Source: Verrucomicrobiales bacterium
GTDB taxonomy: Bacteria; Verrucomicrobiota; Verrucomicrobiia; Limisphaerales; UBA11320
Direction: 5' to 3'
DNA length: 43,392 nucleotides
NCBI GenBank assembly: GCA_016793885.1
Contig: JAEUHE010000004.1
Span: 1-43,392, forward strand
The translations under genes were made by a program, and so were the position numbers. Every line of letters starts with the position of its first letter. Positions within the stretch are counted from its first letter, which is position 1. The notes beneath the pieces are model-generated. The model was not told the DNA's origin. It worked only from the letters and a program-made list of their open reading frames with translations, and ran no database searches. This document shows positions 2,484 to 28,560 of this stretch, in pieces.

Positions 2484-2806
2484 CCCCACGGTTCGCCCAC
2501 GTCGCGGTGGGTTAACGGTCGAATCCTGACTCCGATCATGCTGCCCAACGCGCCTGACAATCCATAAGCTGCGGTGGATATTTGAATCCAGGACGGACCT
2601 TAGTCCCAACCGACCCGGCGATGGAGCTTTCCTCGATGGAGTAACTTTCACGCCAAGTGCGTCCATGCGTCCAAGAATCCTGGTGCAACCGCGGGGCGGG
2701 GATGTGGAATCAGGAAGCAAGGCATCCGTATTCGTAACCAAAACCCAACCTGCCCCCGAAATAACGCGGAAGAAAAAAGGCACGACGAGGTTCAAGCTCT
2801 CCAACT
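2484..2806. other. Intergenic, convergent genes; nothing identified
   Basis: This lies between the ends of the DA1-like gene (plus) and the two-pass membrane gene (minus). A weak 5-bp hairpin (cccac/gtggg, 2496-2511) follows the stop, without a T-tract. No convincing small gene was found. Confidence 0.35.
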
Positions 2807-3295
2807 TCATTCCACTCCCGATCTCCGAGAGCGTCTCAGTTCAAAGACCATGATGACGCCAGCCATCAATGGGAGGCCGCAGGGCAGAATTCCAGCGACA
2901 ATCAGCATGCGCTGAGGGTCGGTCTCACCAACCAGCCTGACTTCTTCCGTTCGATCCCCCGAAAAGTGGAACTGGATGCGACTAGGGAAGTCGAAGAGTT
3001 TGTTTTGAGCGAGAACGGCTTTGACTGTGAACAGTTCGTTCTCGGGCTGGATGACGTAAACGGGGCGCTCCAGGACCTTAAGAAAGGGAGCGCGATACCG
3101 GTCGATGACAACACCCTCCACTACCGCATACAATCGCTTTCGCTGGAATGCCCGATACTCTTGATAGGTGGCGTAAATCACTGGCGCCAGCGGCAAGGCA
3201 CCCAAAAGGAAGAGGATGATCATCGACCATGCCGGATGCCTCAACATGCCGGCTCGAACTTGCCTGCGCGTCTCCTCAGAAACTTCAATATACAT
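2807..3295 (-). CDS. Two-pass membrane protein, DUF3592-like
   Basis: The chosen ATG at 3295 has AAAGG four bases upstream. The longer frame to 3385 would need a TTG start with no ribosome site. The 162-residue product has one hydrophobic helix near residues 22-42 and a second near residues 128-150. Between them is a beta-rich extracytoplasmic stretch beginning with a YAVVEGVVIDRY-like strand. This helix, beta domain, helix order and the VxGxV strand resemble DUF3592-type membrane proteins; the match is by general pattern and is not certain. It stands alone between two intergenic gaps, so context gives no role. Confidence 0.65.
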   Translation of the reverse strand: MYIEVSEETRRQVRAGMLRHPAWSMIILFLLGALPLAPVIYATYQEYRAFQRKRLYAVVEGVVIDRYRAPFLKVLERPVYVIQPENELFTVKAVLAQNKLFDFPSRIQFHFSGDRTEEVRLVGETDPQRMLIVAGILPCGLPLMAGVIMVFELRRSRRSGVE

Positions 3296-3297
3296 CG

Positions 3298-3304
3298 CAC
3301 CTTT
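3298..3304 (-). promoter_or_regulatory. Ribosome binding site fixing the start at 3295
   Basis: Read on the minus strand this is AAAGGTG, followed by CG and then ATG. It supports the internal ATG rather than the upstream TTG at 3385. Confidence 0.55.
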
Positions 3305-3650
3305 GAATCCTAGGAACTCTTCATCAGATGATGAGGACAGATTTATCTGTTTTCGGTAGGTTGGCGAACCAAAAGAGATCCGCAAAGGCTTGAGGGCCTT
3401 AGGACGGATCCCTACGAACGAATTTCTGAGCCTAGCCCCTCACCCACCCTGTATCCGTCCGCCTCTTTCGTCTCCTTTCGTTTCTTGCGGCTAATGCTGG
3501 AGTCCCTGCTAACAAGGCCCTCGGTTATGAGTAACAGATCCCTTCGTGGCTTTGTGGCTTCGTGTGATATATTCGGCCGTCCCCTTGGGCATCCCACCGA
3601 TAGGCCGAGACGGCCCACACTACAATTGTGGCGTCGTCCGGAGGCTGAGC

Positions 3651-6185: not shown

Positions 6186-6700
6186 AAACGCACTCCCGGT
6201 TTCCACCACCGTCGCAGCATTGCTCACGATCGGCGGGTTCACCGTTCAGTTTAGCTGACCTGGTGCGTCACTCTTCGCAGCTGTTGTGAAAGGTCGGTCA
6301 CATCTTGTTCGCCGCTCTTAACGGGGCTTCAACCTGAAAAACAGATGACTCTCCTCGAGACTGTTCGTGATCACAAAGCGACTACCACGTAGCGTCGCAG
6401 TAACCATCCATCGGGCGACGCGTGCTTCGTGATGAAGGCCCTCCATATACCGCAGACCCTAACTGAAATCGCCGAGAGCCTCCACACAAGATTGCAAGGT
6501 CTCGAACTCTGGCTCCTTCAGCTCCAAGTCCGACACATATCAGGAAGGGTTTGAGCCACGTTTGAACGGAAGACCGTAATCCCTCTCAGAGTGATGAGCT
6601 GATCCATCCAAATCCTTGCCCCTCCGCGCGATCCGTGAAATCCGTGGTTACAACACCGTTTTCAGGTTGAACGCTTGCCTGATCGAGAGTTGAATAGGTC
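6186..6700. repeat. Intergenic region bounded by 13-bp inverted repeats
   Basis: ttcaacctgaaaa at 6328-6340 recurs as its exact reverse complement at 6659-6671, bounding about 344 bp. Inside, at about 6631-6650, is atccgtgaaatccgtggtta, a phrase that recalls degenerate repeats of this phylum. No gene is visible. The element could be a short non-autonomous insertion. Confidence 0.4.
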
Positions 6701-7075
6701 GTGCGCTTGGCCCGGTTTACATCGCTGCTTCTCTTCGCAGCCTGCTGGCTTTTCCTTGGAACAGCCGCGGATCGTGCCGTCCCCTCAGCGCACCTGACCC
6801 ACAGGCTGTCCGTTTCGACTCGCGAGGAGATCCAAACCTCTCAACAGACGGTTCCACATCGCCAGCTCAGCATCGCGTCAACCAGTCTCAAACAGCAATG
6901 CCTGCTGCCGAATAGTATCAAGTTTTCGTCGCCTGTCCGATGGGAACACCGATCCTTGGAGTGCAAACCCGCGTCGTTCGCAGCGGTCGAAATTTCCGCA
7001 CCACCCGAGTTCGCGAATACCTGGTATTTTACTCTCCGGACCGCGCTCCACCCCCGAGCGCCTTCTCCTGGCTAG
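6701..7075 (+). CDS. Small hypothetical secreted protein
   Basis: The frame opens with GTG after a weak TAGG and encodes 124 residues with a good signal peptide (LLLFAACWLFLGTAA) and a low-complexity, Ser/Gln-rich middle. It ends in a W-F-T-L-R-T-A-L-x-P-R-A-P-S motif. I have an impression of similar short proteins ahead of membrane-protein genes in this phylum, but did not check this. No function can be given. The following 48-residue membrane protein lies 185 bp downstream on the same strand, so the two may share a transcript. Confidence 0.45.
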   Translation: MRLARFTSLLLFAACWLFLGTAADRAVPSAHLTHRLSVSTREEIQTSQQTVPHRQLSIASTSLKQQCLLPNSIKFSSPVRWEHRSLECKPASFAAVEISAPPEFANTWYFTLRTALHPRAPSPG

Positions 7076-7260
7076 TCTTTCCTTTCTTAACGTTCCTGCG
7101 GGTCACTCTCTCACGCGCCCCCTCCCGATCGCTCACGCGCTCAGTGGACGCCTTCCTCGTAGAGACCTGCACTCACATTCGAATGACGGCGGGCGATTGC
7201 TTACCTGCGCCTCATTGCACAGGCACCTCATCCGTCAACAACCTCAACTCCATTTGATAC

Positions 7261-7407
7261 ATGAAAAACGAGACCTGGATACTCCTGATACTTGCAGCAT
7301 TGCTGCTAGGCACCCCCCTTTGGACGTCGATTTCCGAACGCATTTTTGGCGCTAAGAAACCGAGTCCCCCCAAGAACGATGACATGACGAAAGAGCCTCG
7401 AGAGTAG
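7261..7407 (+). CDS. 48-residue single-span membrane protein
   Basis: A short frame opening with ATG at 7261: a charged start (KNE), a strongly hydrophobic segment of about 14 residues (WILLILAALLLGTPLW), then a polar tail rich in Lys, Pro and Asp/Glu (KKPSPPKNDDMTKEPRE), ending in TAG. The amphipathic order and clean composition argue for a real gene although it is tiny. No good ribosome site is visible. A stable hairpin follows 12 nt after the stop, which fits the end of a transcript. Function unknown. Confidence 0.5.
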   Translation: MKNETWILLILAALLLGTPLWTSISERIFGAKKPSPPKNDDMTKEPRE

Positions 7408-7419
7408 CCAGCTGGTTAG

Positions 7420-7482
7420 ACCAGGGATGGCTTATAGAAGCGGCGAACGACACCGATACGCCGCCCTCGAGCCATCCCTGGT
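7420..7482 (+). terminator. Long nested hairpin, possible terminator or palindromic repeat
   Basis: accagggatggct (7420-7432) pairs perfectly with agccatccctggt (7470-7482). Within the loop, gcggcg pairs with cgccgc (about 7439-7465). It lies right after the 48-residue frame. There is no T-tract, so rho-independent termination is not assured; a REP-like element or mRNA-stabilising structure is equally possible. Confidence 0.4.
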
Positions 7483-7632
7483 TAAACATGGAAACGTGTC
7501 GGGGAGGAAGATTCACCGTTCTTTGATAATCCAGCTGCTCATCCTGAGAGCGCGCCGAGTTGACCCCAGGCCTGGAGGCAATACGTTCACCAAGACCGCC
7601 CCAGCACTCCAACCCCGATTTCCTGAACATCT

Positions 7633-8577
7633 ATGAGCGCCCAATTTCCTTCAGAAGAATCAACCGATGGCAGTTTTCAGCGGCAGGAGGACGCGTTCCG
7701 AAATTTCGTCGCTGCGGATGCCTGCTCCGCCTTCCCCCTGGAAGCCGGCCGCTACCATCTTTATATCTCCCTCGCTTGTCCCTGGGCGAGTCGCACGCTG
7801 ATTGTCCGCAACGTCAAAGGGCTTCAGCAAGCCGTGGGGGTGACGGTGGTGGATCCTGTTCGCGATGAGCGCGGCTGGGCTTTTCGGGACGGACCCGGAC
7901 ATAGTCGCGATCCCATCAATGGCTTCAACTTCCTAAGCGAAGCCTACGCCGCCTCCAATCCCAATGTAGCGGGGCGTGTTACTGTCCCGGTACTTTGGGA
8001 CAAGCAGTCTCGACAGATCGTCAACAACTCCGAGGATGACATCTGCCGAATGTTCAACGACACCTTCGACGCCTTGGGCTCCGGCCAGGTCAATCTATTC
8101 CCCCAGGGCATTGAAGCCGAACAGGCGAAGCTTTCGACCTTCCTTTACGAATCCGTGAATATCGGAGTCTATCAAGCGGGTTTCGCGACCACCCAGGCTG
8201 CCTATGAGAAACCATGCCGGAAGCTTTTTGCCGCCCTCGACGCGTTGGACGAGCGCCTGGCCACGCGACGATTCCTCTTCGGCGCTCAGATCGTGGAGGC
8301 GGATTGGAGGCTCTTTTGCACGCTCATTCGATTTGATGCGGTCTACCATGGGCACTTCAAATGCAACGTCCGAAGAATCATAGACTATAAAAACCTGCAG
8401 CCCTACCTCATGGATCTCTATCAGCAGCCTGGCATAGCCGAGACTGTCAATTTCGATCACATCAAGCGTCATTACTACATCACTCATCCGGACATTAACC
8501 CGACCCGCATTGTTCCGATCGGCCCGGTGCTGGATCTCATGAAACCACATGGCCGTAACTCGATGGAGGCCTGTTGA
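7633..8577 (+). CDS. yqjG: Glutathionyl-hydroquinone reductase (Xi-class GST, YqjG/ECM4 family)
   Basis: The product reduces glutathionyl-hydroquinones back to hydroquinone with glutathione, in the cytoplasm. The catalytic cysteine is C49 in ISLACPWASRT, the signature of this class; ordinary GSTs use Tyr or Ser there. The N-terminal thioredoxin-like half contains VTVPVLWDK and the NNSEDD glutathione-binding turn. The helical C-terminal half contains the RFLFG.Q..EADWRLFCTLIRFDAVY block and the YKNL..Y..DLYQ.PG signature. At 314 residues it is full length. The gene is monocistronic, and its last 41 bp overlap the end of the convergent receiver-kinase gene. Role: quinone/aromatic detoxification or redox defence (family knowledge). 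Confidence 0.93.
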   Translation: MSAQFPSEESTDGSFQRQEDAFRNFVAADACSAFPLEAGRYHLYISLACPWASRTLIVRNVKGLQQAVGVTVVDPVRDERGWAFRDGPGHSRDPINGFNFLSEAYAASNPNVAGRVTVPVLWDKQSRQIVNNSEDDICRMFNDTFDALGSGQVNLFPQGIEAEQAKLSTFLYESVNIGVYQAGFATTQAAYEKPCRKLFAALDALDERLATRRFLFGAQIVEADWRLFCTLIRFDAVYHGHFKCNVRRIIDYKNLQPYLMDLYQQPGIAETVNFDHIKRHYYITHPDINPTRIVPIGPVLDLMKPHGRNSMEAC

Positions 8578-9865
8578 CATTGGGCAGGGTGAAATGGAAG
8601 GTTGCGCCTTCTCCCAGTTCCCCCTCCGCCCAGACCTGGCCGCCGTGGCGATTCACGATACGACGAACATTAGCCAAGCCGACTCCGGTTCCATCGAAAT
8701 CCCGAGCCGCATGAAGGCGCTGAAAGAGACCGAAAAGCTTGCTGACGTAACGCATATCAAAGCCAGCCCCGTTGTCCGCAATGATAAATTCCAGCTCGTG
8801 ACTTCCCCGCGGCTCACAGCTTACGTCGATGATCGCCAGCTCCCGGAGGCGCGTGTACTTGACAGCATTGGAGAGAAGGTTCACCCAGACCTGCTTAAGG
8901 AGTCCACGGTCCGCGAGCACCTCTGGCATCTGGCCGATGCGCCACTCGATTCTTCGATGACCTGTGTCCCTTTTGAGTTCGACCAAAACCTCTTCAAGGA
9001 GCGAGTTCAAGGAGAACACGGCTGGCTGCAACGGCACACAGCCTAAACGGGAAAACGCGAGCAGATCATCGATCAGGAGCCCCATGTTCTTGACCGACTC
9101 CCTCAGACGCTGCAAATAACCTCGACCCTCCACGCTCAATAAGGACGTTGAGTCACCTCCCAACAGTTCCGCGTAGGCATCGATATGGCGCAAGGGCGCA
9201 CGCAGGTCATGCGCTACGGAAGCGTTGAACGCCTCAAGTTCACGGTTGGCATGTTCGAGCTGCACGGTCCTCTCGATGACGCGCTTCTCGAGATCCGAAT
9301 TGATCTGGCGCAGTTGACGCTTCGCCTCCTCCAGCTCCGTTGTCCGGAGAACCAGCTTTTCATTCGCATCAAGGAGCTGATCGCGCGAGCGTTCCAATTC
9401 GAGGTTGCCTTGCTCCAGCTTGTCTACCAGAAGCTCGCTGTATTCCTTCATGACCAGCAGATCAGCTCCCAGGCCAGCCGCCACGGGCTCCGAGGGCCGG
9501 ACCGTCGTGGTGATCACATTCAGCGAATGCAGAATGGCCTGCATCGAACTAGGCTTGCTGATGAACTCATCGGCTCCAACCTCACGCGCCAGTCTCTCAT
9601 CGGCTGAAGACGTATGACTACTCGTGTAGACGATGAACGGGAGCCGTTTTAACTTAGGGCTTTTTCGAATCTCATGACAGAGCCTGTACCCATCCATACG
9701 GGGCATGAGTATGTCGGAAACAACCGCGTCTACCGGCTGATTTTCCAGGACGTGCAGGGCTTCAACGCCATCGGCCGCCTGCAACGCGGAGTGACCTTCC
9801 GCTTCCAAGTTGAGGCGAAGTAGTTTGCGGCTTATTTCGTGGTCATCGACAATAAGGATATTCAT
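8537..9865 (-). CDS. Receiver-histidine kinase hybrid
   Basis: The start is the ATG at 9865, which opens exactly at the first strand of the receiver domain; the frame runs back to 9943 but those residues look non-coding. Residues 1-120 are a CheY-like receiver (acid pocket D7-D8, phosphoacceptor D51, T81, K104). A coiled-coil linker follows (about 140-210). Next is a HisKA-type dimerisation domain with H219 in SVAHDLRAPLRH, then an HATPase_c domain with N, G1 and G2 boxes (NLLSNAVKYT, DNGAGFD, GTGVGLA). There are no membrane segments, so it is cytoplasmic. Receiver-first kinases of the phytochrome-like/bacteriophytochrome-downstream type often act midway in a phosphorelay. It is the third gene of the operon. 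Confidence 0.9.
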   Translation of the reverse strand: MNILIVDDHEISRKLLRLNLEAEGHSALQAADGVEALHVLENQPVDAVVSDILMPRMDGYRLCHEIRKSPKLKRLPFIVYTSSHTSSADERLAREVGADEFISKPSSMQAILHSLNVITTTVRPSEPVAAGLGADLLVMKEYSELLVDKLEQGNLELERSRDQLLDANEKLVLRTTELEEAKRQLRQINSDLEKRVIERTVQLEHANRELEAFNASVAHDLRAPLRHIDAYAELLGGDSTSLLSVEGRGYLQRLRESVKNMGLLIDDLLAFSRLGCVPLQPAVFSLNSLLEEVLVELKRDTGHRRIEWRIGQMPEVLADRGLLKQVWVNLLSNAVKYTRLRELAIIDVSCEPRGSHELEFIIADNGAGFDMRYVSKLFGLFQRLHAARDFDGTGVGLANVRRIVNRHGGQVWAEGELGEGATFHFTLPNVNRPPSSYGHVVS

Positions 9866-10371: not shown

Positions 10372-11925
10372 TTAGGGCTTCCTGTTCATGTCGGCTGCGC
10401 TCAAGGGCAGCAGCACGGTGAAGGTGCTTCCCTTACCCGGCTGACTTTCCACGCTAATACTGCCACCCTGAAGCTCCACTAATCGCTTCGTAAGCGCCAG
10501 ACCCAAGCCAGTTCCCTCGAACCTGCGACCCTCACCCGCGTCCAACTGCTCGAACTCTTTGAAAAGTCGATCCAGATCCTCACGTCGGATCCCGATACCA
10601 CGGTCGGTTACCTCGATCCGTAGCGCGCGACCCTCTTGTGCACTTGCAGTTATGTCCACTTCACTGCCGGGTTGGCTGAATTTCACGCCATTGGAGAGAA
10701 GATTGTAGAGCACCTGCTTAAACTTCTGCTGATCGAGCCTGACCTCGCCCAGCTCCGGAGAGATGTTCATAACAGTGGAGACCTGCTTCTTGCGCGCCGC
10801 TCCTTGAATGACCGCCCGAACCTCATCGATCGCCTGTCGAATTTGAAATGTTTCCGGCGACACATCCATTTTGCCCGCTTCGATTTTCGCCAAATCCAGC
10901 ACATCATTGATGAGCTGGAGCAAATGGCCAGCGCTGTGGAGCACGTCTCCCAGATACTCTTTTTGTTTCAAATTTAAGCTTCCAGGTTTCTCGTCCACGA
11001 GGAATTCGGAGAACCCGATGATGCCGTTTAGCGGGGTCCGCAACTCATGCGACATGTTTGCGAGGAATCGGTTCTTGGCCTCAGCTGCGTTCTGCAGTTC
11101 CAAATTCCGTTGATGAAGGTCTCGCTCAATACGCTTACGATAGGTGATATCCCGAATCGCGCTCATGACGAGCCTTCCTTCGCTGGTGTCGAGCGGGCTG
11201 AGGCTAATCTCCACCGGAAACTCTGTCCCATCCTTGCGCAGTCCTCGAAGTTCAAGCCCCGCGCCCATGGCCCGGGTTCGGGGCTCGGCCGAGAAAGCGT
11301 CGCGGAATCCGGGATGACGTTCTCGGAAGCGTTGCGGTATCAAGATCTCGATGGGCTGCCCCAGCAATTCCTGTCTTGTGTAGCCAAATAAAAGTTCCGC
11401 TTGGGAGTTGACCAACACCACCTTGCCCGTTTCGTCAACGATCACCATTCCATCAGGCGCCGCCTCCAAGAGGCTTCGGAACTTTTCCTCCACCTTCATC
11501 CGCTCTCCCATTTCTCGCTGGGAGGCTTCGTGGGCGGCCCGCAGCTCGGACGGACTGGGTAATGCCAAAGCATGCGGCACCAGCCTGGCAAGTAAGACGG
11601 CGGTGGGCACCGACGCCAAAGCCGTGATCGCCTTAATGGTTCCGCTCAACCAATACGTTGGATACCAGATGCTCCACACTTCCATCAGATGCGTGGCGCC
11701 ACAGGCCACGATAAACACCGCGAAGCAAAGAAACATCCAGTTGAAAGGGAGGTCCCGCCTCCTGCGAATAAAGTAAATCAGCGTAAACGGAATGGAGAAA
11801 TAGGCCAGCGTGATGAGCAGGTCGGAAATGATGTGAAGCGAAAGGATGCCAGGCTGCCAGAGATAGCAATGACCATGCGGCATGAAACCGTCGGAAGAGA
11901 ACAGTTTTTCAAGCATGCCTGCCAT
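10372..11925 (-). CDS. Ethylene-receptor-like membrane histidine kinase with PAS domain
   Basis: The start is the ATG at 11925, after GGGAGGACCG; ATGs at 11940 and 11916 are alternatives. Residues 25-115 form three membrane helices matching the ETR1 ethylene-binding domain. D35, Y42, I45, P46, I72, C75 and H79 sit at a constant offset of +10 from ETR1 D25, Y32, I35, P36, I62, C65 and H69; Cys and His are the Cu(I) ligands. A PAS domain follows (about 145-265, ending in RDITYRKRIE), then HisKA with H293 in FLANMSHELRTPLNG, then HATPase_c (NLLSNGVKFS, DRGIGI, GTGLGLAL). It is first of a three-gene operon. Whether it senses ethylene, copper or something else is not shown by sequence. Confidence 0.9.
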   Translation of the reverse strand: MAGMLEKLFSSDGFMPHGHCYLWQPGILSLHIISDLLITLAYFSIPFTLIYFIRRRRDLPFNWMFLCFAVFIVACGATHLMEVWSIWYPTYWLSGTIKAITALASVPTAVLLARLVPHALALPSPSELRAAHEASQREMGERMKVEEKFRSLLEAAPDGMVIVDETGKVVLVNSQAELLFGYTRQELLGQPIEILIPQRFRERHPGFRDAFSAEPRTRAMGAGLELRGLRKDGTEFPVEISLSPLDTSEGRLVMSAIRDITYRKRIERDLHQRNLELQNAAEAKNRFLANMSHELRTPLNGIIGFSEFLVDEKPGSLNLKQKEYLGDVLHSAGHLLQLINDVLDLAKIEAGKMDVSPETFQIRQAIDEVRAVIQGAARKKQVSTVMNISPELGEVRLDQQKFKQVLYNLLSNGVKFSQPGSEVDITASAQEGRALRIEVTDRGIGIRREDLDRLFKEFEQLDAGEGRRFEGTGLGLALTKRLVELQGGSISVESQPGKGSTFTVLLPLSAADMNRKP

Positions 11926-12384
11926 CGGTCCTCCCAACATCAGTCCTCACGCCTAGCCTCCTGCCCAAGCTTGGAATGAGTGCTCTCCGCCTCCGGCGGA
12001 GACCCAAGGTCTCGTTTTGTGCCGATATCATCTTCATGATACATAGCCTGGTTTGGCAGAGTCCCCTGCGCCCTGGTCACGAGAAAAAGCTCGTATCGAC
12101 CAGTCCAATCTTGCTCTGCCTATGACAATAAATGTTCAGTTCGAAGTAAACTGGCAAGCTAATTGACCAGCATCGCAACGATTGCCGTATTATCGTGGAG
12201 AGAAGAGCGGGACCACCCAGCTGCAGGAGTTGAGTTGAAACCACCCGCAGACCGCCACCCATCGAAGCCATTTTAGCCAGGAACTCACCTACGGATGCCC
12301 TCGATGAAAAAGCGGAAACAAGAGGCACAAGTCACTGCCTGCCCCTACACGGCTGATGGCCAGGGCTTTTTTAGGGATCTTACC
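11926..12384. other. Leader region of the signalling operon, no gene seen
   Basis: This 459-bp gap lies between the end of the giant copper oxidase gene and the kinase start, both on the minus strand. It holds two adjacent small perfect hairpins: ctccgcc/ggcggag at 11985-12001 and gagacc/ggtctc at 11999-12013. They overlap by three bases, so they could be alternative structures. An 83-codon minus-strand frame (12077-12328) has no domain, signal or ribosome site and was not accepted as a gene. The operon promoter presumably lies here. Confidence 0.4.
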
Positions 12385-15300
12385 TCACGGCAGCGGGGAG
12401 GCCACCCGGAGTCGAAAGAAAACCTTGGCATCCCCCGAAAGCTTCGAGATCCGCATCTGCACCCCTCCGGCCCCGGGCAGAATCGCGGGCTCTTCCTCAA
12501 AGGGGGACGGCAGGCGCCTCCAATTCAACAGGTCGGAGCTGACTTCAAGGGTCCATGCACTAAAATCCGCCAGCGGAAGATCAATCCGGAGACTGAGGGT
12601 GGAGGTTCCATCCGATTCCAACCGCAGAGTGGGTCGAAATTCTTGATGGTCATCCAACTGACGCAGGTAGGCGGTGAGGTTGGCTAGGTCGGTCGCCGAA
12701 AGGCTCACTCCACGATGGGCCAACACGGCATCGGCAAGGGTCGCCGCCGAGCCATCATGCAAATAAGGTGGAGTCGACCACAGCCCGCGCAGAGTCGGGG
12801 TGTCCAAGCCAGCCAGGGGCGATCCCAATCGGCCTCCGCTCGATGGCTTCAGGGTTCCCACGTCATGGGCGACCCCAATGGCACTGTCGGTCATCTGGCT
12901 TCCAGCGTGGCAGCTGGCGCATCCCTCCCGCTGAAACACCATTTGTCCAGCGATGCCGGCAGCACTCAGGCTCCCACCCGAGTTGCGTTCGGGGCTGGTT
13001 CCGTGGGACGTCAGCGATTCCAAATAGGCCGCCAAGGCATCCAGGTCAGCACTCAGACCGGCTTTGCGATCTCCCATCGACTGAGAGCGGGTACCCCCAT
13101 GAAAATCAGCGTCCGCCATGAGCCCCCTGCCCAAGGCGAATCCTCGGATCTGTCCTTCGAAATCCTGCACCTCGTCAAAGTTTCCCGTCCAGTGCAACGG
13201 ACCTTGCGCCGTCCCGCCGTGGCCTCGGAGAACAATGGTGTTGCGAAGACCTTCCCCAAATTGGGTGAAATCCCAGGTCCGACCATCCTGCCCACCTTCG
13301 TTGTGACAGCTCGCACAGCTCATGTACTGCTGGAAAGCCAGGCGGGCATCGCGGGCGTCGTAAAACAACTGCTTACCGCGGAGAACAGCCAAAGGAAGTT
13401 TCTCCTCGCCGACGCACTCCAGGATGACGGGCGCGGGCGGAGGCTGTTCCGCTCCGTTCTGAAGTGCAGCCACATCATGCACGGTAACAGTGCGGTCCAT
13501 GAAGTTGTGCGCAAAGAGGGTCGAACCGTCAGGCGACAGGACCACCCCCTGAGGTGCGCGGCCCGCCGGGAACCGAAGGATCTCTCGCTTGCTCCAGGCA
13601 TCCACCACCGCAACTTCCCGACTTCCTTCAAGGGCCACAAAGAGAAACAGCCCGGTCGGATCAAAGACGGCGGCGCTGGCCATCCCCGCATTATCGAAGT
13701 CCACCCGACCCGCCAAATCCTCCACACCCGTCCCGATCACCACCCGGGAAACGATGCTGCGCAGGGTCATGTCATGGGTCAGCGGAGTTCGGCTTCGCAA
13801 CATCCCACGCAGGATGTTGTCCTGCTTCGATGGGATCCAAGCGGACAAGCCGTCCGGCGAAATGGCCGCGGCACCAAGATAGTTGGGAACCCCTCGCGCC
13901 GAGTTGGAAGTGTCCGGTCGCTCGCTGTGATGAAGAATGTTCGTGGCCAAGATGGCCAGGCTGGATGGCTGGAGAACCAGCATCTGCCCGCCAAAGGAAA
14001 CGCCGCCCACCCGGGACTGAGGTGTAGCTGTCTGCTCGCCCGGCTGAGGTGGAGTGATAAAGCGCGTCGCCAACAAGCGAGTCGCCCCCGCCGAAAGCGA
14101 CAGATGCCGCACATGCAAACCCACTCTCGCTGAAGCAAGCACTTCTCCCGTCGAGGGCCGAAGCTGCAGGATCTGCCCCCCCAATTCCAGAGCCACATAG
14201 GCGCGCGTACCGCCGGGATCGAACACGAGGCCGAAGGGCCTGGACCCCGCCGGTAACTCCAGCGTGCGAACCAAGGAAAAGTCCGACCTGAAGACACTGA
14301 TCGTGGCGCTCTCCGAGTTCACCACCCACACGCGACGATCCGGGCCGAGGGCAACTGTGCGCGGTTCCCTTCCAACCGGCACCTCCGCGAGACGGGACCG
14401 AGTCGGCACATCAAAAATGGAAACACTATCGTTGTCAGGGTTGACAACCCACAGCCGCGGAGACACTCCAGTCTGTTCCTCATACAGCAAACTCGCGGAA
14501 GCCACCGGACGGCCGGCAGTGGGCGACCCAAACACGCCCTGTCGAAAGCTGGCCGTCACCTGACGTCCCGTGTCGTCTCTTGCGGTGACCACGACCAGGA
14601 ACCGTCCGGGCGTCGAGAAGGTGTGACTCACCGAAGGAGAATCCGAGAAAACGGAGTCGGGGGTGCCATCCCCAAAGCCCCACTTGTACTTCACGTTCAA
14701 TCCCCCGTTGGCTCGCGCGGTCAGAGATGCCGCCGTATTGACACGAATCGCCGGCCCGGCCAATGGATCCAAGGTCAATGTCGGTTTGACCTCCCACGCC
14801 AGCTCGACCCTGACCGCAGGGGTGTTGCCGTCCGAAACGCTGATAATCGGCGTGTAACGGCCCGAAGCCGTCGCAGCACCCGAGATCAATCCCGAAACAG
14901 GATGGATCGTGAATCCCGGGGGAAGGTCAGTGGCGCTCCATTGCAGTGGGTCGCCGTTCACGTCGGATGCCTGCATCTGCAAGACGAACGGCGCACCCAC
15001 CACCGTAACGGGGCTGGACGGCGGAATGAGGATCGGTGGGGAGGGGGGTGCCAGGGTGTTCACCGTAAGGCTCCACGACTCAATGTCGTGATGATTGGTC
15101 AATCGCCCCGTCGCTCCGGCAAACCCGAACCACGCCTGCTCACCAACCGTGGCCGGCAAATCGACCTCAACCGTCATCACCGAGGTGCTCGGACGCTGGC
15201 TAACGACGCCTTCAGCTAAATACACCTCAAGCCGCCGAGCGGGTCCATCGTAGGTTACCCACAGGGTGTGGCTCTGTTCATTCTCCAAATCCCAGCCCGG

Positions 15301-17589
15301 CGTCCAAGTCGCGACATGATTCGTGGTGACTCCATTCAGCAGGATACCCAGATGATTGCCATTCGGATCTCCGGATCCCTGATGGTTGTCAACCTCCACT
15401 GCCACGCTCCGTTCCACCCCGCGATACGCCAAATTCCCACCCGTTCCGCCTAGAGCATCAGGGCCATTGCCCTGAACCACAAACGCAAGCCCGTCCGCAC
15501 CGTCGGCCGCACCGTGAATGCGAAAAACCCAGCGCGTCGCAAAAGAGGTGTCGGCCCCCATGGGAATGGCCGAGGAAAGGTAAGCAGAGCCCGCTTGAAG
15601 GGCGGCATTGGTGGCGAGCTGGAGCACCGAGCCGAGGATCGCGGCCTTACCGTTGAGGGTGAGTCCGGTGGCATCAGCAAAGTTGGCGAACTGCCGGTGC
15701 AGATGAAAGGGATCCACCACCCACCGGAAGACCGCCGTATCCGTCGTGTTTCCATCCGTCAAAGTAACGGTCACACGAGCCGACGCAGTCACCGCTGGAA
15801 CACCGGTAATGAGCCCCGTACCCGGATTCAATGAAAGCCCGCTCGGAAGCCCGACGGCCGTCCAGGTCAAAGTGCTGCCTTCTGGACCGCTGCCCACGAG
15901 TTGCAAGTTGATTGCCCGTCCCGCCGACGAGTTTTGATCCCCTAGCGACCCAATGTGAACCGCCGGATTCGGATCTACCTGAACAATCTTGGAAATCGAA
16001 TGGACGCCCGCTGAATCGAGGCCGAAGAGCATCCAATACCCTGGGGTCATCACGTTGAGGTTGGATCGGGCAGTAAGGTGGTAGACTCCGGGGGCCGACT
16101 CCACAAACGGAAGCGAGAGATAACGAAGATCGGTGTTCACCGAGTGGGTCATGGCCGACAGCTTGATGAAGCTGAACTTGCTCATCCCAGGCGTCCCGGA
16201 AACCGTGAACGTGGTCGCGACGCCGATCTTCAATGGAGCGGTGTCCAACCGAGGACGGCTCGCCAGGCTGCCATCCGGATTGAACAAGTTGGGGGGCGTG
16301 TAAATCTGCGCATCCCGATGGTCCGCGGAGTTTCCCGCCAGCCCACCTCCACCCGACAGAATTCGACCATCCGGTAGCAAGAGCGCAAACGAATGGTAAT
16401 TTCGGGGAACCGAGGCGTCGGCGGCGGGCCGCCACCTCCTCGTGCTAGGGTTCCAGATCTCGGGTGTCAGGATCGACCCCGTGTCGCTGAATTTACGTCC
16501 CGAGGTGTTGCCGCCGAATACCATCACCTCGCCGTTGGGCACGAGGACCGAGTTGGCAAATTGCCGGGGAAAGGCCATGGAGGCGTTGGATGCAACCGTG
16601 GGGGGAGTCGCGCTGAGGTCGATGGTGAAGGAAGAACTCGAACTGGTTCCGGTGGTGGTGTCATTGGGATTTTGAGTCGTGTTGACCCCTCCGCCGGCCA
16701 CCAAGATCTTCCCCTCGTCGTACAATGCCCACACGCCCTCCTTGGGATACAGGCTTCCCGGCACTCGCGCGCCCGCAGTGGTGAGGGCTCCCCCTCCATC
16801 GGAGTCGATCCAATGCATGGTGCGGGTTGGCCCGAAGTGCAACAATCGGCCGTTGGGCGCCAGAACCAAAAAAGGATGCCAAATGTTGATGTATCCAGGC
16901 TCCCTTAACACGATGTTCCAATCGATGCTCGGCAGACGGCTCCAGCCAACGGACTCATCCCAAAGCTCAGTGGTGCTAGATCCTCCGCTGCCGCTGGCGG
17001 TGAACGCTTGACCGCTGGGTAGCGCCACAGTGGTGTTGTACCAGCGACGGTCGTTCATGTCCGTAAGCGGCGTCCAGGTGTTGCTCCGCCAATCAAAGAA
17101 ACTGGACAGGACTGTCACACTCCGACCGCCATTCACTAAAAGCCGCCCGTCGGGTAACAACACCAACCCACCGCAGAACATATCATGCGAAGGATGATTG
17201 TATTCCTCAAATCGTCCGGTGGCCGGATCCCAAGTGGCGGCATAGGTAAACTCCGGTCCGTCAGGAAAAGTGGTCCTCTCATTCGAAGCAAAGCTGAGGA
17301 TGCGTCCGTCCGGAAGAGTCGCTACCGAGACAGGAATATGCGGCGTCCACCGGATGACGGCACTCCAGTCTCCCAACACGATCCGCTGGGTGGGAAGTGG
17401 TGGCGGGGGCGCCGGCGGAGGCGGAACAGCGGGCAACAACGACGCTACCTCCGCGGCAAAACGATCATCTTCGGCATGGCTTTCGAAGTCAGCGTACAAC
17501 CACGCGGGTGTGAGCAAGACAACATAACAAGCCAATACGACGCCGAAATCGAGGGAACAGCAACCGTGGTTTGCAGTGATGCGGTTCAT
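12385..17589 (-). CDS. Secreted copper radical oxidase fused to L-type lectin, PKD, beta-propeller and di-heme cytochrome c domains
   Basis: 1734 residues with an N-terminal signal peptide and Pro-rich linker (51-66). Residues 70-540 are a galactose/glyoxal-oxidase Kelch domain plus C-terminal Ig-like cap. The Cys-Tyr cofactor pair fits C139 (HDMFCGG) and Y184 (RRWYNTT); copper ligands fit Y398-H399 (RNYHS) and H482 (MTHSVNTD). Putative Ig domain: 540-627. L-type lectin domain: 628-845, with VAVEVDNH and DPNGNHLGIL. Second Ig-like domain: 850-935. PKD: 940-1010. YVTN-type propeller: 1030-1385. Di-heme module: 1390-1650, with CxxCH at 1425-1429 and 1557-1561 and the TPPYLHDGS turn of cytochrome c peroxidase/MauG relatives. 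The end carries the C-terminal module shared with two other giants. Galactose oxidases make H2O2, so an oxidase-peroxidase pairing is inferred. Confidence 0.88.
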   Translation of the reverse strand: MNRITANHGCCSLDFGVVLACYVVLLTPAWLYADFESHAEDDRFAAEVASLLPAVPPPPAPPPPLPTQRIVLGDWSAVIRWTPHIPVSVATLPDGRILSFASNERTTFPDGPEFTYAATWDPATGRFEEYNHPSHDMFCGGLVLLPDGRLLVNGGRSVTVLSSFFDWRSNTWTPLTDMNDRRWYNTTVALPSGQAFTASGSGGSSTTELWDESVGWSRLPSIDWNIVLREPGYINIWHPFLVLAPNGRLLHFGPTRTMHWIDSDGGGALTTAGARVPGSLYPKEGVWALYDEGKILVAGGGVNTTQNPNDTTTGTSSSSSFTIDLSATPPTVASNASMAFPRQFANSVLVPNGEVMVFGGNTSGRKFSDTGSILTPEIWNPSTRRWRPAADASVPRNYHSFALLLPDGRILSGGGGLAGNSADHRDAQIYTPPNLFNPDGSLASRPRLDTAPLKIGVATTFTVSGTPGMSKFSFIKLSAMTHSVNTDLRYLSLPFVESAPGVYHLTARSNLNVMTPGYWMLFGLDSAGVHSISKIVQVDPNPAVHIGSLGDQNSSAGRAINLQLVGSGPEGSTLTWTAVGLPSGLSLNPGTGLITGVPAVTASARVTVTLTDGNTTDTAVFRWVVDPFHLHRQFANFADATGLTLNGKAAILGSVLQLATNAALQAGSAYLSSAIPMGADTSFATRWVFRIHGAADGADGLAFVVQGNGPDALGGTGGNLAYRGVERSVAVEVDNHQGSGDPNGNHLGILLNGVTTNHVATWTPGWDLENEQSHTLWVTYDGPARRLEVYLAEGVVSQRPSTSVMTVEVDLPATVGEQAWFGFAGATGRLTNHHDIESWSLTVNTLAPPSPPILIPPSSPVTVVGAPFVLQMQASDVNGDPLQWSATDLPPGFTIHPVSGLISGAATASGRYTPIISVSDGNTPAVRVELAWEVKPTLTLDPLAGPAIRVNTAASLTARANGGLNVKYKWGFGDGTPDSVFSDSPSVSHTFSTPGRFLVVVTARDDTGRQVTASFRQGVFGSPTAGRPVASASLLYEEQTGVSPRLWVVNPDNDSVSIFDVPTRSRLAEVPVGREPRTVALGPDRRVWVVNSESATISVFRSDFSLVRTLELPAGSRPFGLVFDPGGTRAYVALELGGQILQLRPSTGEVLASARVGLHVRHLSLSAGATRLLATRFITPPQPGEQTATPQSRVGGVSFGGQMLVLQPSSLAILATNILHHSERPDTSNSARGVPNYLGAAAISPDGLSAWIPSKQDNILRGMLRSRTPLTHDMTLRSIVSRVVIGTGVEDLAGRVDFDNAGMASAAVFDPTGLFLFVALEGSREVAVVDAWSKREILRFPAGRAPQGVVLSPDGSTLFAHNFMDRTVTVHDVAALQNGAEQPPPAPVILECVGEEKLPLAVLRGKQLFYDARDARLAFQQYMSCASCHNEGGQDGRTWDFTQFGEGLRNTIVLRGHGGTAQGPLHWTGNFDEVQDFEGQIRGFALGRGLMADADFHGGTRSQSMGDRKAGLSADLDALAAYLESLTSHGTSPERNSGGSLSAAGIAGQMVFQREGCASCHAGSQMTDSAIGVAHDVGTLKPSSGGRLGSPLAGLDTPTLRGLWSTPPYLHDGSAATLADAVLAHRGVSLSATDLANLTAYLRQLDDHQEFRPTLRLESDGTSTLSLRIDLPLADFSAWTLEVSSDLLNWRRLPSPFEEEPAILPGAGGVQMRISKLSGDAKVFFRLRVASPLP

Positions 17590-17836: not shown

Positions 17837-18871
17837 TCACGGCTTCGCCAAGATCGGTCCGATATACTCGGTAGCTACCACCACGTCATCGAACCAAACC
17901 TGAATTCGATGCCCGGACTCCTTCTGGGTAAACACATAGAGCCAGACATAGTTCACCTTCAGTTCGGGCACGGTTCGCCATCGATAGCCCTCGAAAGGGG
18001 CGCCACCTTCCGGCACGGTAATATATTCCCGATCCCCCTTGGCATCGCTCCAACGAACCCCATTGCCACCCTTACCCGGCTCGAACTTGTCGAAAGTCCA
18101 ACGGCCTTTGGGAAATCCTTTCCCGAGATGGGCAACGAGTTTGCCATCGATCCATAAAGCCTGCTCCCCGTTGGATTCACCCACATCGTTCATCTGGATC
18201 ATCTGTTCGATGCATATCCAGCGCCCCTTCTCGACCTTGAGCTTGGGATCATGGATGAAGCTGTTGCCCCAGGTTTGACCGCGCGGCGGACTTCCACGCA
18301 TCTCGCACCAATAAGTATAGAAATCCCAGGTCCACGCTTTGCCAAAGGGTTCAATTCCGGACCAGAATGACTTCGCGCCATCGTTACGGATTCCAGCCTT
18401 CACACTGGGCCAAGGGGTCGCCGGAAAACTGCCGCCCAGACATGCCCCAAAATGATGCAATTCACCCGAGTTCGTGGCGAACTTCACGTAATAGCGGGCG
18501 AAGATGCGATCATACCCGAAGCCGCCCTTGGTGTTCTTGAGGCGCCGATAGAGAGATCCGCCCGGCCCACTCTGCCGGTCCATCAGCAGCGAGTGCCTGC
18601 CCGAGCTGCCCAGCGGAACGTCGTCCGCGAAACTCAGATCACGCTTCGCTCCTACGTTCTCCCATTGGGCCGCCAACGTCGCCACGTCTGCTTGTTCAAA
18701 CGCCTCCACCTGAACCACCCGAGGATCGCCTGCAAGCCCAACGTCGCCAGGATACTGAGATGCCAGTCCCGGCCCGGAAGGAAGCCCAGCGGCGCCGCTA
18801 AGGCTGCCAGAGACCAAGCCAAATGTGATCACCACCACCATCGCCCACAACTGACTGGGGGCAGGCTTCAT
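17837..18871 (-). CDS. Secreted concanavalin-like (polysaccharide-lyase-like) protein
   Basis: The ATG at 18871 starts a standard signal peptide (hydrophobic AMVVVITFGLVSGSLSGA); an ATG at 18916 would add 15 residues. The mature part (about 320 residues) is rich in aromatic residues and beta strands. It has the blocks RIFARYYVKFA, GELHHFG, KAGIRNDG, WDFYTYWCEMRG and IQVWFDDVVVATEYIGP, which recall the jelly-roll proteins annotated as polysaccharide-lyase or laminarinase-like in Planctomycetota and Verrucomicrobiota. The exact family was not recognised and no catalytic residue can be assigned. It lies 247 bp upstream of the lectin-containing copper oxidase on the same strand, which suggests related substrates. 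It could also be a pure carbohydrate-binding protein. Confidence 0.65.
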   Translation of the reverse strand: MKPAPSQLWAMVVVITFGLVSGSLSGAAGLPSGPGLASQYPGDVGLAGDPRVVQVEAFEQADVATLAAQWENVGAKRDLSFADDVPLGSSGRHSLLMDRQSGPGGSLYRRLKNTKGGFGYDRIFARYYVKFATNSGELHHFGACLGGSFPATPWPSVKAGIRNDGAKSFWSGIEPFGKAWTWDFYTYWCEMRGSPPRGQTWGNSFIHDPKLKVEKGRWICIEQMIQMNDVGESNGEQALWIDGKLVAHLGKGFPKGRWTFDKFEPGKGGNGVRWSDAKGDREYITVPEGGAPFEGYRWRTVPELKVNYVWLYVFTQKESGHRIQVWFDDVVVATEYIGPILAKP

Positions 18872-18916
18872 CTGGGTTTCCAGGATTAAGGGGGAACCAA
18901 TCGTTCGTCGTTTCAT

Positions 18917-20856: not shown

Positions 20857-23800
20857 CTACTGGACTCGAACTCGGAAGAACCCGACCGCAGGCCCAGTTG
20901 TATCCCGAGTGAACTGGAGCGTACTCCCATCACCTGCCCTGGTCTCAAGAGTCGACCAGGTCGCTGTGCTCAGATTGGCCTTCCCTTCCAGAACATAGCT
21001 GCTGCCCGGCTCCGAAACGAACTCGAACCGGAGCTGACCGGAAGGAGACGGGACTGGCGTGAGCACAAGATCGCTCGCCTTGAGCCGGTAGCGAGCCTCC
21101 AGCGAGGTGTTGTCCAGCAGCAGCAACGATACCGCCGTCGCAGCGGCGGCCTGGGGCTGATTGTTGATCACCCAGCGATCGAAGGCATACCGGCCATACT
21201 CCTTCGGAGCCTCGAGTGTGACTTGCGAGAAGGGCGTGAAGACTCGCAGAAAATCTCCCTGCCCATCCTGCCGGTTGTTCACGTCGGACTGACTGACAGT
21301 AATGACGGGTTGAAGGTCCTTTGATACCTTGACGGCCAACTCACGAACATTGCTTCGGGTGGGTGTGTAGTCGTACTGAATCTCAAACAGCAGATCGTCG
21401 ATGATGAAGTCGGTTCCGTTGTCGCTGGTTACCTGCTTGGTGAGCAGGATCTCGGCATGGGCAGCCGGCAACGAGTAGAACACGACGTCCGTGATTGGCA
21501 CCGGCAGTTGTCCCAGCAGCACGCCGATCAGGGACTGCTGCGCCGCGCTGAGTGTGCTGTTCACCGTCTGGCCGGTCTGGCCGTCATGGATGGCACTCCA
21601 TGTGATGGGATTCACGTTCTCGCTTTGATAGTGCCGAAACAGGAGGGTTCGTCCCCCGGTGGTCAGCCGTGAGTCACCCTGATGCTCGTAATTCAAGCGC
21701 ATCAACGCCAAGGATCCGATCGGGCCGTCAGGTCGAGCCGCCAGCACCCGGGTCCGCAGATCAGCCAAACGCACATTCTCATCACCCGCATTGATCAGGC
21801 CCAGCTCCTTTAAGTTGAGCAAAACAAACCCCTGCTCATTCAGCTGCTGGCGCTGTTGGGTGCTGAGCCGATAGCTCTTGGGCAGCGAACGGGATGGCGC
21901 ATTCACATTGTCGAGCGATTGAGCCACCAGGTCGCGCAGCTCGCTGATAAAAATGCCCTTGAGCGTTTCAAAATCGGCCGCGGAAAGAACATGCGATGTA
22001 TTCGCTTCGACCAGCTGCTGGAAGCGAACGAACAGCCGATTGAGCTGCAGGTTCCCGTTGAACGGACGGAGCTGCCGATATTGGTAAGCCTTCGCCAGAA
22101 GATACTGGTATTTCACCATTCGATCCCGCGCGCGACGTTCCATTTCCTTGATGTGCATCAACGCTCCATGGTCCAGGACGTTCAACCGCGCGCTGATCCG
22201 ATCCTCCAGCTCGTGCGTCGCCACCAGGTTCTGGGCGATGCTGCTGTTGAACGCGCTCACCAGCTGCAGGGATCCAGCCAGCTCCTGAGCATACGCCTCC
22301 TTCTCCGCGCTCAAGGATTCAACCTCCTCGGCCATGCCCTGCATGTCCACATCCGCGGCTTTCAGCTTCTCGAGTTCGGCTGCCATCTCCTCGCTGTCCA
22401 CCTTGGCGGTCTTGAAAATGGCTGCCAACTCCTCGAGTTTACTGCCCGCGAATTTGGCACACTGCCCCAAACGCTTGAGCCGCTCCTTGCGTGTCTCCTT
22501 GGCCTCCTCCGACAGTGCAACCAAACCGGAGGTCTCCTCGGCAGGAGGAGCATTGGTCTTGAAGCAGAACGTAATGTTTACGTTGGTCGATAGTTCCATC
22601 GCCTGGGGAGCCAGCGCCTTGGCGCTCTCCACCGGATGCTCCGTGTCCACCTGGGCTAGCAAGCCCAGGCCCGCCCCGACGATACCCACCGCCGGCTGAC
22701 CAACCGGGACGAGTTGAGCAACAACCGATAGCGCCCCAGCAATCTTTTTCCAGGCAGGAACCCGATGCCTTTCTCGCACGTTCCGCCGCGCCCGATCCTC
22801 CAGCTCAGCCAGCCTCTTGGCGATGTTGCTGGTCGTCATCGAGATCCGGAATGCCAGGCTCTCAGCGTGACTCTTCAGGCGAGGAATGGCTAACTGCGCC
22901 TCGTCGAACTCCGTCTCCAGCCGATCGCGTTCCGCTTCCAGTCCGGAACGCGCCTGCTCCGTCGCCACCAGGGACGCCTGGAGGTTGGTGGCCGCATGGT
23001 TGAGCCAATAGGTCAAATACAGGATGGGGACGGACTGGTTCACCTCATTCTGAAACGCCAGCAGATTAGCCTCAAAGGAGAGCATCGGCACCCACCCCGC
23101 AGGATTTCCGAAATAGTCGAGGTTCGAGTCGAGACGATAGATAAGACTGCCAATCTCAGTTTGAAGCTGACCCAGATTCAGTCCCTCCGAAAACTGCTCC
23201 TCCGTCGTAAGCGAGGTCGGCAACTCGGCGGATTCATACGCTCGCAGCAACTCACGATACTGCCCCAGGATTCGACGAGCCTCTTCGAAGCGGCCATTCA
23301 GGTAGGCATCCTTGGCGTACTGAACGACGCTATGAACGGAATAGGAGTGCAACCATGATCCCGGGGTTGGCAAGAGCTCCACTCGCCCCGGCTGCCCAGC
23401 GACGCCGGCCGGAGGAGCAGCCGCTAGTCCCGGTTGCTTGTCAGCGGTTTTGTCCTCGTTGGTGACCTTCTCGGCCCCGTTCACTATTCGAGTATTGGTC
23501 ACCCGGTGTATAAACCGGTTGGTCAGCGGTGCGCCGCCCTGATACTGGATTCCAACGGGCCCAGCCGCGCCTCCCGCCAAAACCGCGAATTCACCAAGAC
23601 TCAGAGTGGACCGCAGAATGCCACCGCGCCCACCAGTTCCGGGAACCCCGGCAGGCACCCCGTTCTCCCCCTTTGCCGGCACCGCGTTTCCACATACTGA
23701 TAGCGTCCTTCCATTGAGCGTCTCCCTCCAATACATCAGGACGGCAGACTGCCCGTGAAATCCGCAGATTTCGATCCCAGCACGCACAGTCAAGTTGGTC

Positions 23801-25158: not shown

Positions 25159-25326
25159 AGGACAGTAACAATCCGTTGGTGATGCGTACTGAGGTGTGCG
25201 AATTCCGGTTCCGCACGTGATGCTCAAATACTTCACACTCCTCTCCCACGCCGTTGGAGAAACGTTACAAGAAATGCGCGAAGGGTTTCTCCCTTGGAAG
25301 GGCAACGGACGCGCTCAAGGCCACCA

Positions 25327-28476: not shown

Positions 28477-28560
28477 GCTCAGACGCGACAGTGGTTCACT
28501 CAACTGTTCTCTCAAAAAGCAGAAACGTTACCAAAAGGTTGTCGACTCAAGACCACCCGT

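Follow-up and report, generated by a model that had tools for sequence, protein, structure and literature searches.

Fusion of a copper radical oxidase-type domain and a di-heme cytochrome domain in single proteins of Verrucomicrobiota and other bacteria

RESULTS

Domain layout of the fused protein

The window analyzed here is a stretch of 43,392 nucleotides from a Verrucomicrobiales bacterium (GCA_016793885.1; JAEUHE010000004.1) and represents the complete contig C4 of an 8.7-Mb genome assembly. Positions 12385-17589 of its minus strand hold a single intact open reading frame (ORF) of 1734 residues with an ATG start, in which a domain of the copper radical oxidase type and a di-heme cytochrome domain are joined in the order copper radical oxidase-Ig-lectin-Ig-PKD-propeller-di-heme (all coordinates within this gene are on the minus strand). 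Residues 1-33 (17491..17589) form a hydrophobic N terminus that is likely an export signal, as judged by reading the sequence rather than by a signal-peptide program. The AA5-type copper radical oxidase domain occupies residues 70-540 (15970..17382) and consists of a Kelch propeller and an early-set cap at 445-538. In Pfam, the next domains are an Ig-like He_PIG domain at residues 548-625 (15715..15948), an L-type (legume) lectin domain at 633-848 (15046..15693; E = 1.7e-32), and a PKD domain at 947-1010 (14560..14751); the He_PIG matches form two stretches, with the second Ig lying between the lectin and PKD domains. A YVTN-type beta-propeller at residues ~1040-1385 (13435..14472), for which the Pfam lactonase-type propeller match is weak (4.2e-5), leads into the di-heme domain at ~1395-1650 (12640..13407), which Pfam and profile comparison place in the clan of cytochrome c peroxidase (CCP), MauG, and hydrazine synthase gamma. 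A short tail closes the protein.

An earlier note, made from the DNA sequence alone, had proposed that an oxidase and a di-heme module share one chain here, and had named a frameshift or the joining of two separate genes as grounds for abandoning the idea. The frame is unbroken across 12385-17589, the same arrangement holds in several phyla, and a domain search finds PF09118, Kelch repeats, He_PIG, legume lectin, PKD, propeller, CCP_MauG, and cytochrome c in the one chain. An assembly join or frameshift is ruled out by P0001, a 95%-identical protein that spans 100% of the window protein. A second copy in the same genome, 63% identical to the window protein, and the recurrence of the fusion in other genomes likewise rule out an assembly artifact.

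Distribution of the fusion

Our protein search recovered 2232 homologs among 7981 scored candidates, and the residue counts given for homologs below refer to the 120 matches listed. A genome scan with two patterns, both derived from the copper domain, yielded 120 relatives, and the best 80 by full-length query match were kept. The copper domain, propeller, and di-heme domain lie in one frame in 72 of these 80, including four (L052, L076, L088, and L107) whose copper domain is cut at the contig start. All 72 full relatives have the propeller and di-heme domains, all except L114 have PKD, and 71 have both heme motifs, the exception (L122) ending with its contig. The eight other loci are cut by contig ends (L056, L057, and L108), interrupted by a run of N (L051), carry an in-frame stop (L073 and L075), or are broken into overlapping frames according to ORF coordinates (L059 and L123). 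Tails and inserts are very variable among relatives.

As a check free of bias from full-length ranking, the copper domain alone was used as the query against 288 genomes of the phylum (E ≤ 1e-30). It returned nine matches in eight genomes, the window protein included; eight lie in frames that also contain the propeller and a two-CxxCH di-heme domain (two in the window's own genome and six elsewhere), and the ninth is truncated where its contig begins. Further chains uniting an oxidase with two CxxCH motifs, which the earlier note had suggested looking for, are thus found by both routes. By record titles, the 80 loci belong to Verrucomicrobiota, several gamma- and betaproteobacterial groups, Chloroflexota, Trueperaceae, Blastocatellia, and Myxococcota; the only alphaproteobacterium is L123, with its broken copy. 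The fused gene is therefore patchy yet wide in its distribution. Distances in the copper domain are correlated with those in the di-heme domain (Mantel r = 0.67, 0 of 999 permutations), yet the two domains share the same nearest neighbor in only 31 of 70 rows, and we set co-inheritance of the domains aside as support.

The earlier note had also envisaged docking to carbohydrate. The window protein does have a lectin domain, but this is not general: only 12 of the 72 full-length relatives carry one. We therefore reject the lectin as a defining part of the family and regard it, and sugar docking with it, as accessory.

Copper domain

The best solved structure by sequence is galactose oxidase (9g8h/9g43), which matches residues 73-538 with 298 bits (E ~7e-88), and Pfam detects the galactose oxidase-like early set PF09118 at 445-538 (E = 7.5e-16) together with Kelch repeats. 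Five cofactor residues are in register with 9g8h/9g43, at the positions already named in the earlier note: Cys139 (17173..17175), the cross-link cysteine; Tyr184, the radical tyrosine (17038..17043 together with Trp183); Tyr398-His399 (16393..16398); and His482 (16144..16146), the last three assigned as copper ligands by sequence alignment. The features that mark an AA5 enzyme, namely, the Cys and Tyr of the cross-linked radical, the axial Tyr and two His ligands, and the Kelch propeller with its early-set cap, are thus all present. Among the listed homologs, Cys139 and Tyr184 are found in 119 of 120, with one gap each, and Tyr398, His399, His482, and both CxxCH motifs are found in all 120. 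A predicted model of the core of L117, a relative 44% identical to the window protein, superimposes on the galactose oxidase fold at 1.9 Å over 457 residues (1192 residues modeled; predicted template modeling score, 0.82). The earlier note had also named as a ground for abandoning its idea a structure model in which the five residues fail to come together at one site, and the L117 fold match gives no sign of this. Structure alignment A2 comprised the window protein and 50 of 67 loci, with L095 left out where its stretch ran past the stop, and A3 comprised the window protein and 25 loci.

The window protein lacks a stacking Trp at the place of galactose oxidase Trp290, where it has Gly. Such a Trp belongs to galactose oxidase and not to every AA5 enzyme, so its loss does not exclude AA5. 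A Trp directly precedes the radical tyrosine instead, possibly as a replacement: Trp183 is present in 67 of 70 rows, one of which carries a Trp in the Trp290 loop as well. The remaining three rows (L077, L079, and L120) show the reciprocal pattern, with Gly183 before the radical tyrosine and GGSW in the Trp290 loop. From these alignments, the stacking Trp seems to have been relocated to residue 183 in most members. The NCBIfam model for GlxA scores 150.9 bits on the window protein, against a cutoff of 800.

Di-heme domain

The two heme motifs, both CASCH, lie at residues 1425-1429 (13303..13317) and 1557-1561 (12907..12921). CCP_MauG (PF03150) matches residues 1405-1472 (E = 3.6e-7; 31.3 bits against a cutoff of 25.6), a cytochrome c family of Pfam matches too, and the di-heme profile aligns with 5c2v_C and 3o5c_A at E = 1.4e-22. 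The narrower models score well below their cutoffs on the window protein, with 37 bits each for MauG and MbnH and 74.4 bits against 1250 for the NCBIfam hydrazine synthase model. This domain is the most conserved part of the protein, with a mean p-distance of 0.40 over 70 rows versus 0.50 for both the copper domain and the propeller; folded by itself, it gives a poor predicted model.

Trp1467 (13189..13191) lies at the inter-heme Trp position of CCP and MauG. It aligns with the Trp of FWDGR in CCP 9qdt and with a His of hydrazine synthase gamma (His144 by offset), and it is present in all 71 locus rows with a residue there and in 223 of 224 protein rows. CCP and MauG are described as carrying Trp at this His144 position (PMC12758564). 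Relative to hydrazine synthase gamma, Trp1467 and Leu1490 replace His144 and Cys165 (by alignment, with numbers by offset). Around this Trp, His1466, Glu1473, Asp1476, Gln1480, and Arg1482 are identical in 224 of 224 protein rows and Glu1478 in 223; Gln1480 is found in 70 of 71 rows of the locus set.

At the second heme, the distal ligand is Met in CCP and Tyr in MauG, whereas the window protein has His1625 (12715..12717). Profile alignment puts residue 1625 on MauG 294 (profile 206-238 against chain 264-296, equal lengths taken as ungapped) and on the Met of CCP 3o5c; the structure entry title "Y294H-MauG" identifies MauG 294 as Tyr. His1625 is a likely ligand of this heme, and the conservation of His1561 and His1625 in the sequence rows is the pattern of a candidate bis-His heme. 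For heme 1, a distal His like that of classical CCP was considered and rejected as an invariant ligand: only 34 of 72 rows have a His between heme motif 1 and Arg1449, at a position occupied by Gln in the window protein.

Co-variation of Cys139 with the heme 2 ligand position

We compared residues 139 and 1625 across 305 aligned rows of fused proteins, a set that includes duplicates (the locus and protein record of one gene, and overlapping loci) and 10 rows gapped at 139. Where Cys139 is present and residue 1625 is called, the latter is His in 260 of 261 rows; the single exception is P0338, a protein with another chassis and a displaced His (see below). The 31 rows with Ala139 instead have Met (15), Asn (7), or His (9) at 1625, and all 31 keep Tyr184, Tyr398, His399, and His482. 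On a tree built from the propeller (110 rows, 29 of them Ala139, with rows from the L080 search taken first), the state at 139 changes three times, either as separate losses or as fewer losses with regains. Parsimony places four changes at 1625, all on Ala139 branches by our reading of the tree. These branches make up 14.9% of the tree length, giving a naive probability of 0.149^4 = 5e-4 that presumes even rates. Within the Ala139 part of the tree, P0138 and P0146 keep both Cys and His.

A scan of all positions used the 224 protein-search rows with Cys or Ala at 139, minus P0338 (197 Cys139 and 27 Ala139). Of 204 positions conserved to at least 97% in Cys139 rows, eight drop below 80% in Ala139 rows: C139, H135, R409, P452, R1324, G1499, D1596, and H1625. 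This pattern suggests mutual tuning of the Cys-Tyr cofactor and heme 2; being confined to one clade, it is only suggestive, and we regard it as evidence rather than proof.

Sister family and a second candidate fusion

The same PKD-propeller-di-heme half occurs with other front ends in a sister family (L013, L014, L015, and P0229-P0348). Many of these front ends contain PF08309, which we take to be LVIVD repeats, and that of L014 is LamG-like by our reading of its sequence. From this distribution, the PKD-propeller-di-heme half can serve some role other than that of an oxidase partner. The oxidase-free sister family has no His at 1625 itself; a His follows shortly after, past an insertion in the same loop, in 115 of 116.

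P0338 (2267 residues), one of the 120 sister-family matches listed, carries a copper domain, with both CxxCH and the copper motifs retained. That domain is closest to unfused oxidases (276 bits versus 215 for the fused family), whereas its propeller and di-heme domains are nearest to the oxidase-free sister family (399 and 387 bits versus 268 and 314). P0338 is apparently a second, independent fusion, in which case the same two functions have been joined at least twice, if the record is sound.

Neighboring genes

A further CxxCH gene matching MauG/MbnH-type seeds is present in 37 of the 80 loci and directly adjacent in 35 of these 37 by row count: 28 upstream on the same strand, six downstream on the same strand, and one downstream on the opposite strand (L074). 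The two nonadjacent partners are in L059, where the main gene is frame-broken, and in L091 (2.3 kb away). Where at least 1 kb of upstream sequence is available, 26 of 65 loci have the partner directly upstream on the same strand, and many partner genes share 4 bases with the start of the oxidase gene (gap of -3). Eight partners were scanned for domains, the rest being identified by BLAST to the seeds only. The four Verrucomicrobia-type partners scanned (L041, L051, L114, and L119) are fusions of MbnP and MauG/MbnH (PF20243 plus PF03150). Among the four from Gammaproteobacteria, YtkA-like and CCP_MauG domains share one protein in L100 and L103 and form two adjacent genes in L067 and L074, the YtkA match of L074 being under the cutoff. 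A copper-binding MbnP beside a copper enzyme fits a role in providing copper or in maturation.

The second copy in the window genome (L041) has such a partner at L041:2191-4125 on the minus strand, where MbnP fused to a MauG/MbnH-like di-heme enzyme overlaps the start of the oxidase paralog by ~30 bases. The window copy is without one: no other window ORF of at least 80 residues holds two CxxCH. In L060, a 2368-residue ORF (1527-8633, plus strand) with a di-heme model match and two CxxCH lies two genes upstream of the fused oxidase.

Six neighbors of the oxidase gene in the window were compared with the ORFs of 126 loci and rejected as conserved partners: the PL14-like protein, the ethylene receptor-like kinase, the 1482-residue ORF, the sigma factor-like protein, the cupin, and the Na/H exchanger. 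Upstream of the oxidase gene, 17837-18916 (minus strand) is weakly PL14 polysaccharide lyase-like (E = 3.7e-5; 24 bits against a cutoff of 27) and matched only itself. Downstream, 10372-11940 (minus strand) encodes a histidine kinase with an ethylene receptor-like N-terminal domain (PF25487; E = 4.7e-41), whose CGATH stretch presumably resembles the plant copper/ethylene site; considering matches of more than 400 residues, it gave one near relatives, at 25% in L047. Farther away lies a 1482-residue ORF (20857-25305, minus strand) in which Pfam detects nothing at E ≤ 0.01; after it come a Ser/Thr kinase that bears WD40 repeats (25327-28515) and a protein weakly matching sigma-70 region 2 (28561-29337). 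The window also holds another histidine kinase. The sigma factor-like protein matched L003 and L039 only, and the cupin, the 1482-residue ORF, and the Na/H exchanger of the window had no match at 1e-10 among the ORFs of these loci.

DISCUSSION

The best reading of these proteins is that of a copper radical oxidase that carries its own heme activator and peroxide sink, resembling a fungal oxidase/peroxidase pair brought into one chain. More specifically, we tentatively favor the possibility that the oxidase and the two-heme domain form one redox unit, in which the hemes would consume H2O2 and keep the Cys-Tyr radical active. Copper radical oxidases lapse into a form without the radical and suffer damage from H2O2, and peroxidase systems restore them (PMC10928124, PMC9770985). 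High H2O2 inactivates glyoxal oxidase, which peroxidase with ABTS reactivates (PMC10928124), and in a fungal tandem the heme peroxidase activates the copper radical oxidase paired with it, the two having been modeled with the heme facing the copper of the oxidase (PMC9770985).

In such a redox unit, the exported oxidase would oxidize an alcohol or aldehyde at the Cu(II)/Cys-Tyr site and reduce O2 to H2O2. The peroxide would then reach heme 1, perhaps along the propeller, as proposed for small molecules in hydrazine synthase, where a beta propeller loop lies inside the tunnel linking the gamma and alpha active sites (PMC12758564); this path is a guess modeled on that tunnel. Heme 1 may react with peroxide through an altered pocket. 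Oxidized heme 1/Trp1467 would pull electrons, via or near heme 2, from inactive non-radical copper centers and thereby reactivate them, and outside donors could also feed electrons to it. The lectin and Ig parts would be exchangeable docking modules, and the adjacent MbnP- or YtkA-linked di-heme gene of many relatives may aid copper loading or maturation. The His at the MauG Tyr position predicts peroxide reduction rather than bis-Fe(IV) chemistry: when BthA Tyr463 is replaced by His, the counterpart of MauG Y294H, the bis-Fe(IV) signal is described as lost, and peroxide reduction is expected because BthA Y463H retains it (PMC6405878). The co-variation of Cys139 and residue 1625 supports some coupling of the copper and heme sites.

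Several observations weigh against this redox unit. The PKD-propeller-di-heme half is common without an oxidase (119 of the 120 sister-family hits listed), and copper-domain relatives exist unfused, with no two-CxxCH ORF within the surrounding 20 and 13 kb. Ranking by full-length match favors fused relatives, and unfused ones are possible among the 40 not kept, while the apparent second fusion, P0338, is a single metagenome record. The Cys139 change lies within one clade (one 31-row part of the tree, with three changes), nine of the 31 Ala139 rows retain His1625, and an independent-pairs test had two to three pairs, a number unable to reach significance (median P = 1). A bis-His heme can also have a low potential, ~-310 mV in hydrazine synthase (PMC12607021), where the heme in question is likely gamma-II by its electron paramagnetic resonance signal; such a heme would be a poor oxidant for Cys-Tyr. 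Finally, the distal Glu of CCP, MauG, and BthA is not found at its spacing: a Glu lies 6 to 14 residues after Gln1480 in 12 of 224 rows and not in the window protein, where the spacing is that of MauG Gln103/Glu113 from structure entry titles and Gln1480 is taken as the Gln by motif reading. A substitute may come from Glu1473, Asp1476, or Glu1478. The earlier note's "peroxidase-type" label therefore holds as far as family resemblance and the kept inter-heme Trp go, and falls short at the distal Glu and at the His in the MauG Tyr294 position; with that Glu missing and the di-heme half common without an oxidase, we can only infer peroxidase activity.

A more elaborate form of the redox unit, which we find conceivable if doubtful, is a widespread self-activating copper radical oxidase. 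Here, the Cys-Tyr radical and the bis-His heme, matched to one another in one chain, would exchange electrons, and peroxide made at copper would rearm that site via a di-heme relay of the hydrazine synthase gamma type; upon loss of the Cys, the heme ligand would drift to Met or Asn.

The hemes could, alternatively, be a peroxide sink only, reducing H2O2 with electrons from a periplasmic donor and protecting the oxidase and the cell with no exchange with Cys-Tyr. We consider this unlikely. The two-heme domain of the peroxidase clan, identified by Pfam and profile, is consistent with a sink, as are the reduction of H2O2 by BthA Y463H with an outside donor (PMC6405878) and the sensitivity of glyoxal oxidase to high H2O2 (PMC10928124), but a sink does not predict the co-variation of Cys139 and His1625, and the missing distal Glu counts against it as well.

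Rather unlikely, in our estimation, is an electron outlet, by which the hemes would take electrons from reduced copper to a soluble cytochrome and the enzyme would act as a dehydrogenase that makes little H2O2. Quinohaemoprotein dehydrogenases are usually built in this way, with a catalytic propeller fused to c-type hemes, and the co-variation fits direct electron exchange. Against an outlet, the domain belongs to a two-heme peroxidase clan with the inter-heme Trp kept and is not a single-heme outlet, and the copper site retains the five cofactor residues of O2-using oxidases.

It is improbable that the PKD-propeller-di-heme half is a generic exported surface unit with a job of its own, to which the oxidase is attached, uncoupled, as one front end of several. 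The size of the sister family, in which different front ends replace the oxidase, and the very variable tails and inserts are as expected for such a unit, yet the fusion is kept in nearly all relatives across phyla, was apparently made twice, and shows site-specific co-variation.

Least probable is a MauG-like maturase in cis. With H2O2, its hemes would make or mend a modified residue, the Cys-Tyr cross-link or some other, and would then be structural. Galactose oxidase, however, forms its own cross-link with copper and O2. The weak MauG and MbnH model matches, the MbnP/MbnH-like or YtkA/MauG-like gene adjoining many relatives, and the MauG-like gene beside the copper enzyme methanethiol oxidase (PMC5739008) point toward it, and the His in place of MauG Tyr294 points away, as MauG Y294H and BthA Y463H are described without a bis-Fe(IV) signal (PMC6405878).

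The copper radical oxidase with a built-in heme partner can be set beside several known systems. With AA5 oxidases (galactose oxidase 1gof and 9g43/9g8h, alcohol oxidase 5c86, and GlxA 4unm) it has five cofactor residues in common and, in relative L117, the fold; it differs in having Trp183 beside the radical tyrosine, no Trp at the Trp290 place, and fused hemes. With CCP, MauG, and BthA it shares two CxxCH, a PYLHDG-type motif, and, except for BthA, the inter-heme Trp, and it differs in the distal Glu, in the His at the Met/Tyr ligand position, and in being fused rather than separate. The peroxidase of the comparable fungal system is a class II enzyme with one b-type heme. That system, the tandem peroxidase-alcohol oxidase of Colletotrichum and Magnaporthe, is likewise a functional pair of copper radical oxidase and heme peroxidase, in which the peroxidase oxidizes the copper enzyme toward its radical form (PMC9770985), but it consists of two secreted proteins, whereas here one chain carries a c-type di-heme domain. 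In hydrazine synthase beta-gamma (5c2v) and in its homologs from the environment, a propeller likewise precedes a CCP-like di-heme domain (PMC12758564), and for both halves this enzyme ranks with the closest relatives of solved structure; the window protein has Trp for gamma-His144, Leu for gamma-Cys165, and a copper oxidase in front. In the mtoX-SCO1-mauG operon, an H2O2-making copper enzyme is accompanied by a MauG-like di-heme gene, like the neighbor of many relatives (PMC5739008), although the copper enzyme there is unrelated and the hemes are unfused.

Among the matches listed by full-text searches of open-licence papers, none describes, judging by title and opening of the abstract, a fusion of a copper radical oxidase to a cytochrome or di-heme domain; by the title of a reference cited in PMC11267884, an AA5 enzyme is known as a fusion with an inactive CE3 domain. 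The modules themselves are known; what appears new is that they are constantly combined, how widely this combination is spread, and the co-variation. In their use as biocatalysts, copper radical oxidases are assayed or run with added peroxidase, catalase, or mediators (PMC10928124, PMC11267884). A natural heme partner within the chain would show a bacterial answer to copper radical oxidase inactivation and H2O2 harm, and would give a single-protein system for coupling a copper radical to heme. It would also extend the propeller/di-heme unit of the hydrazine synthase type to a new partner, and it would suggest what a large and mostly unnamed protein family does in Verrucomicrobiota, Gammaproteobacteria, Chloroflexota, and other groups.

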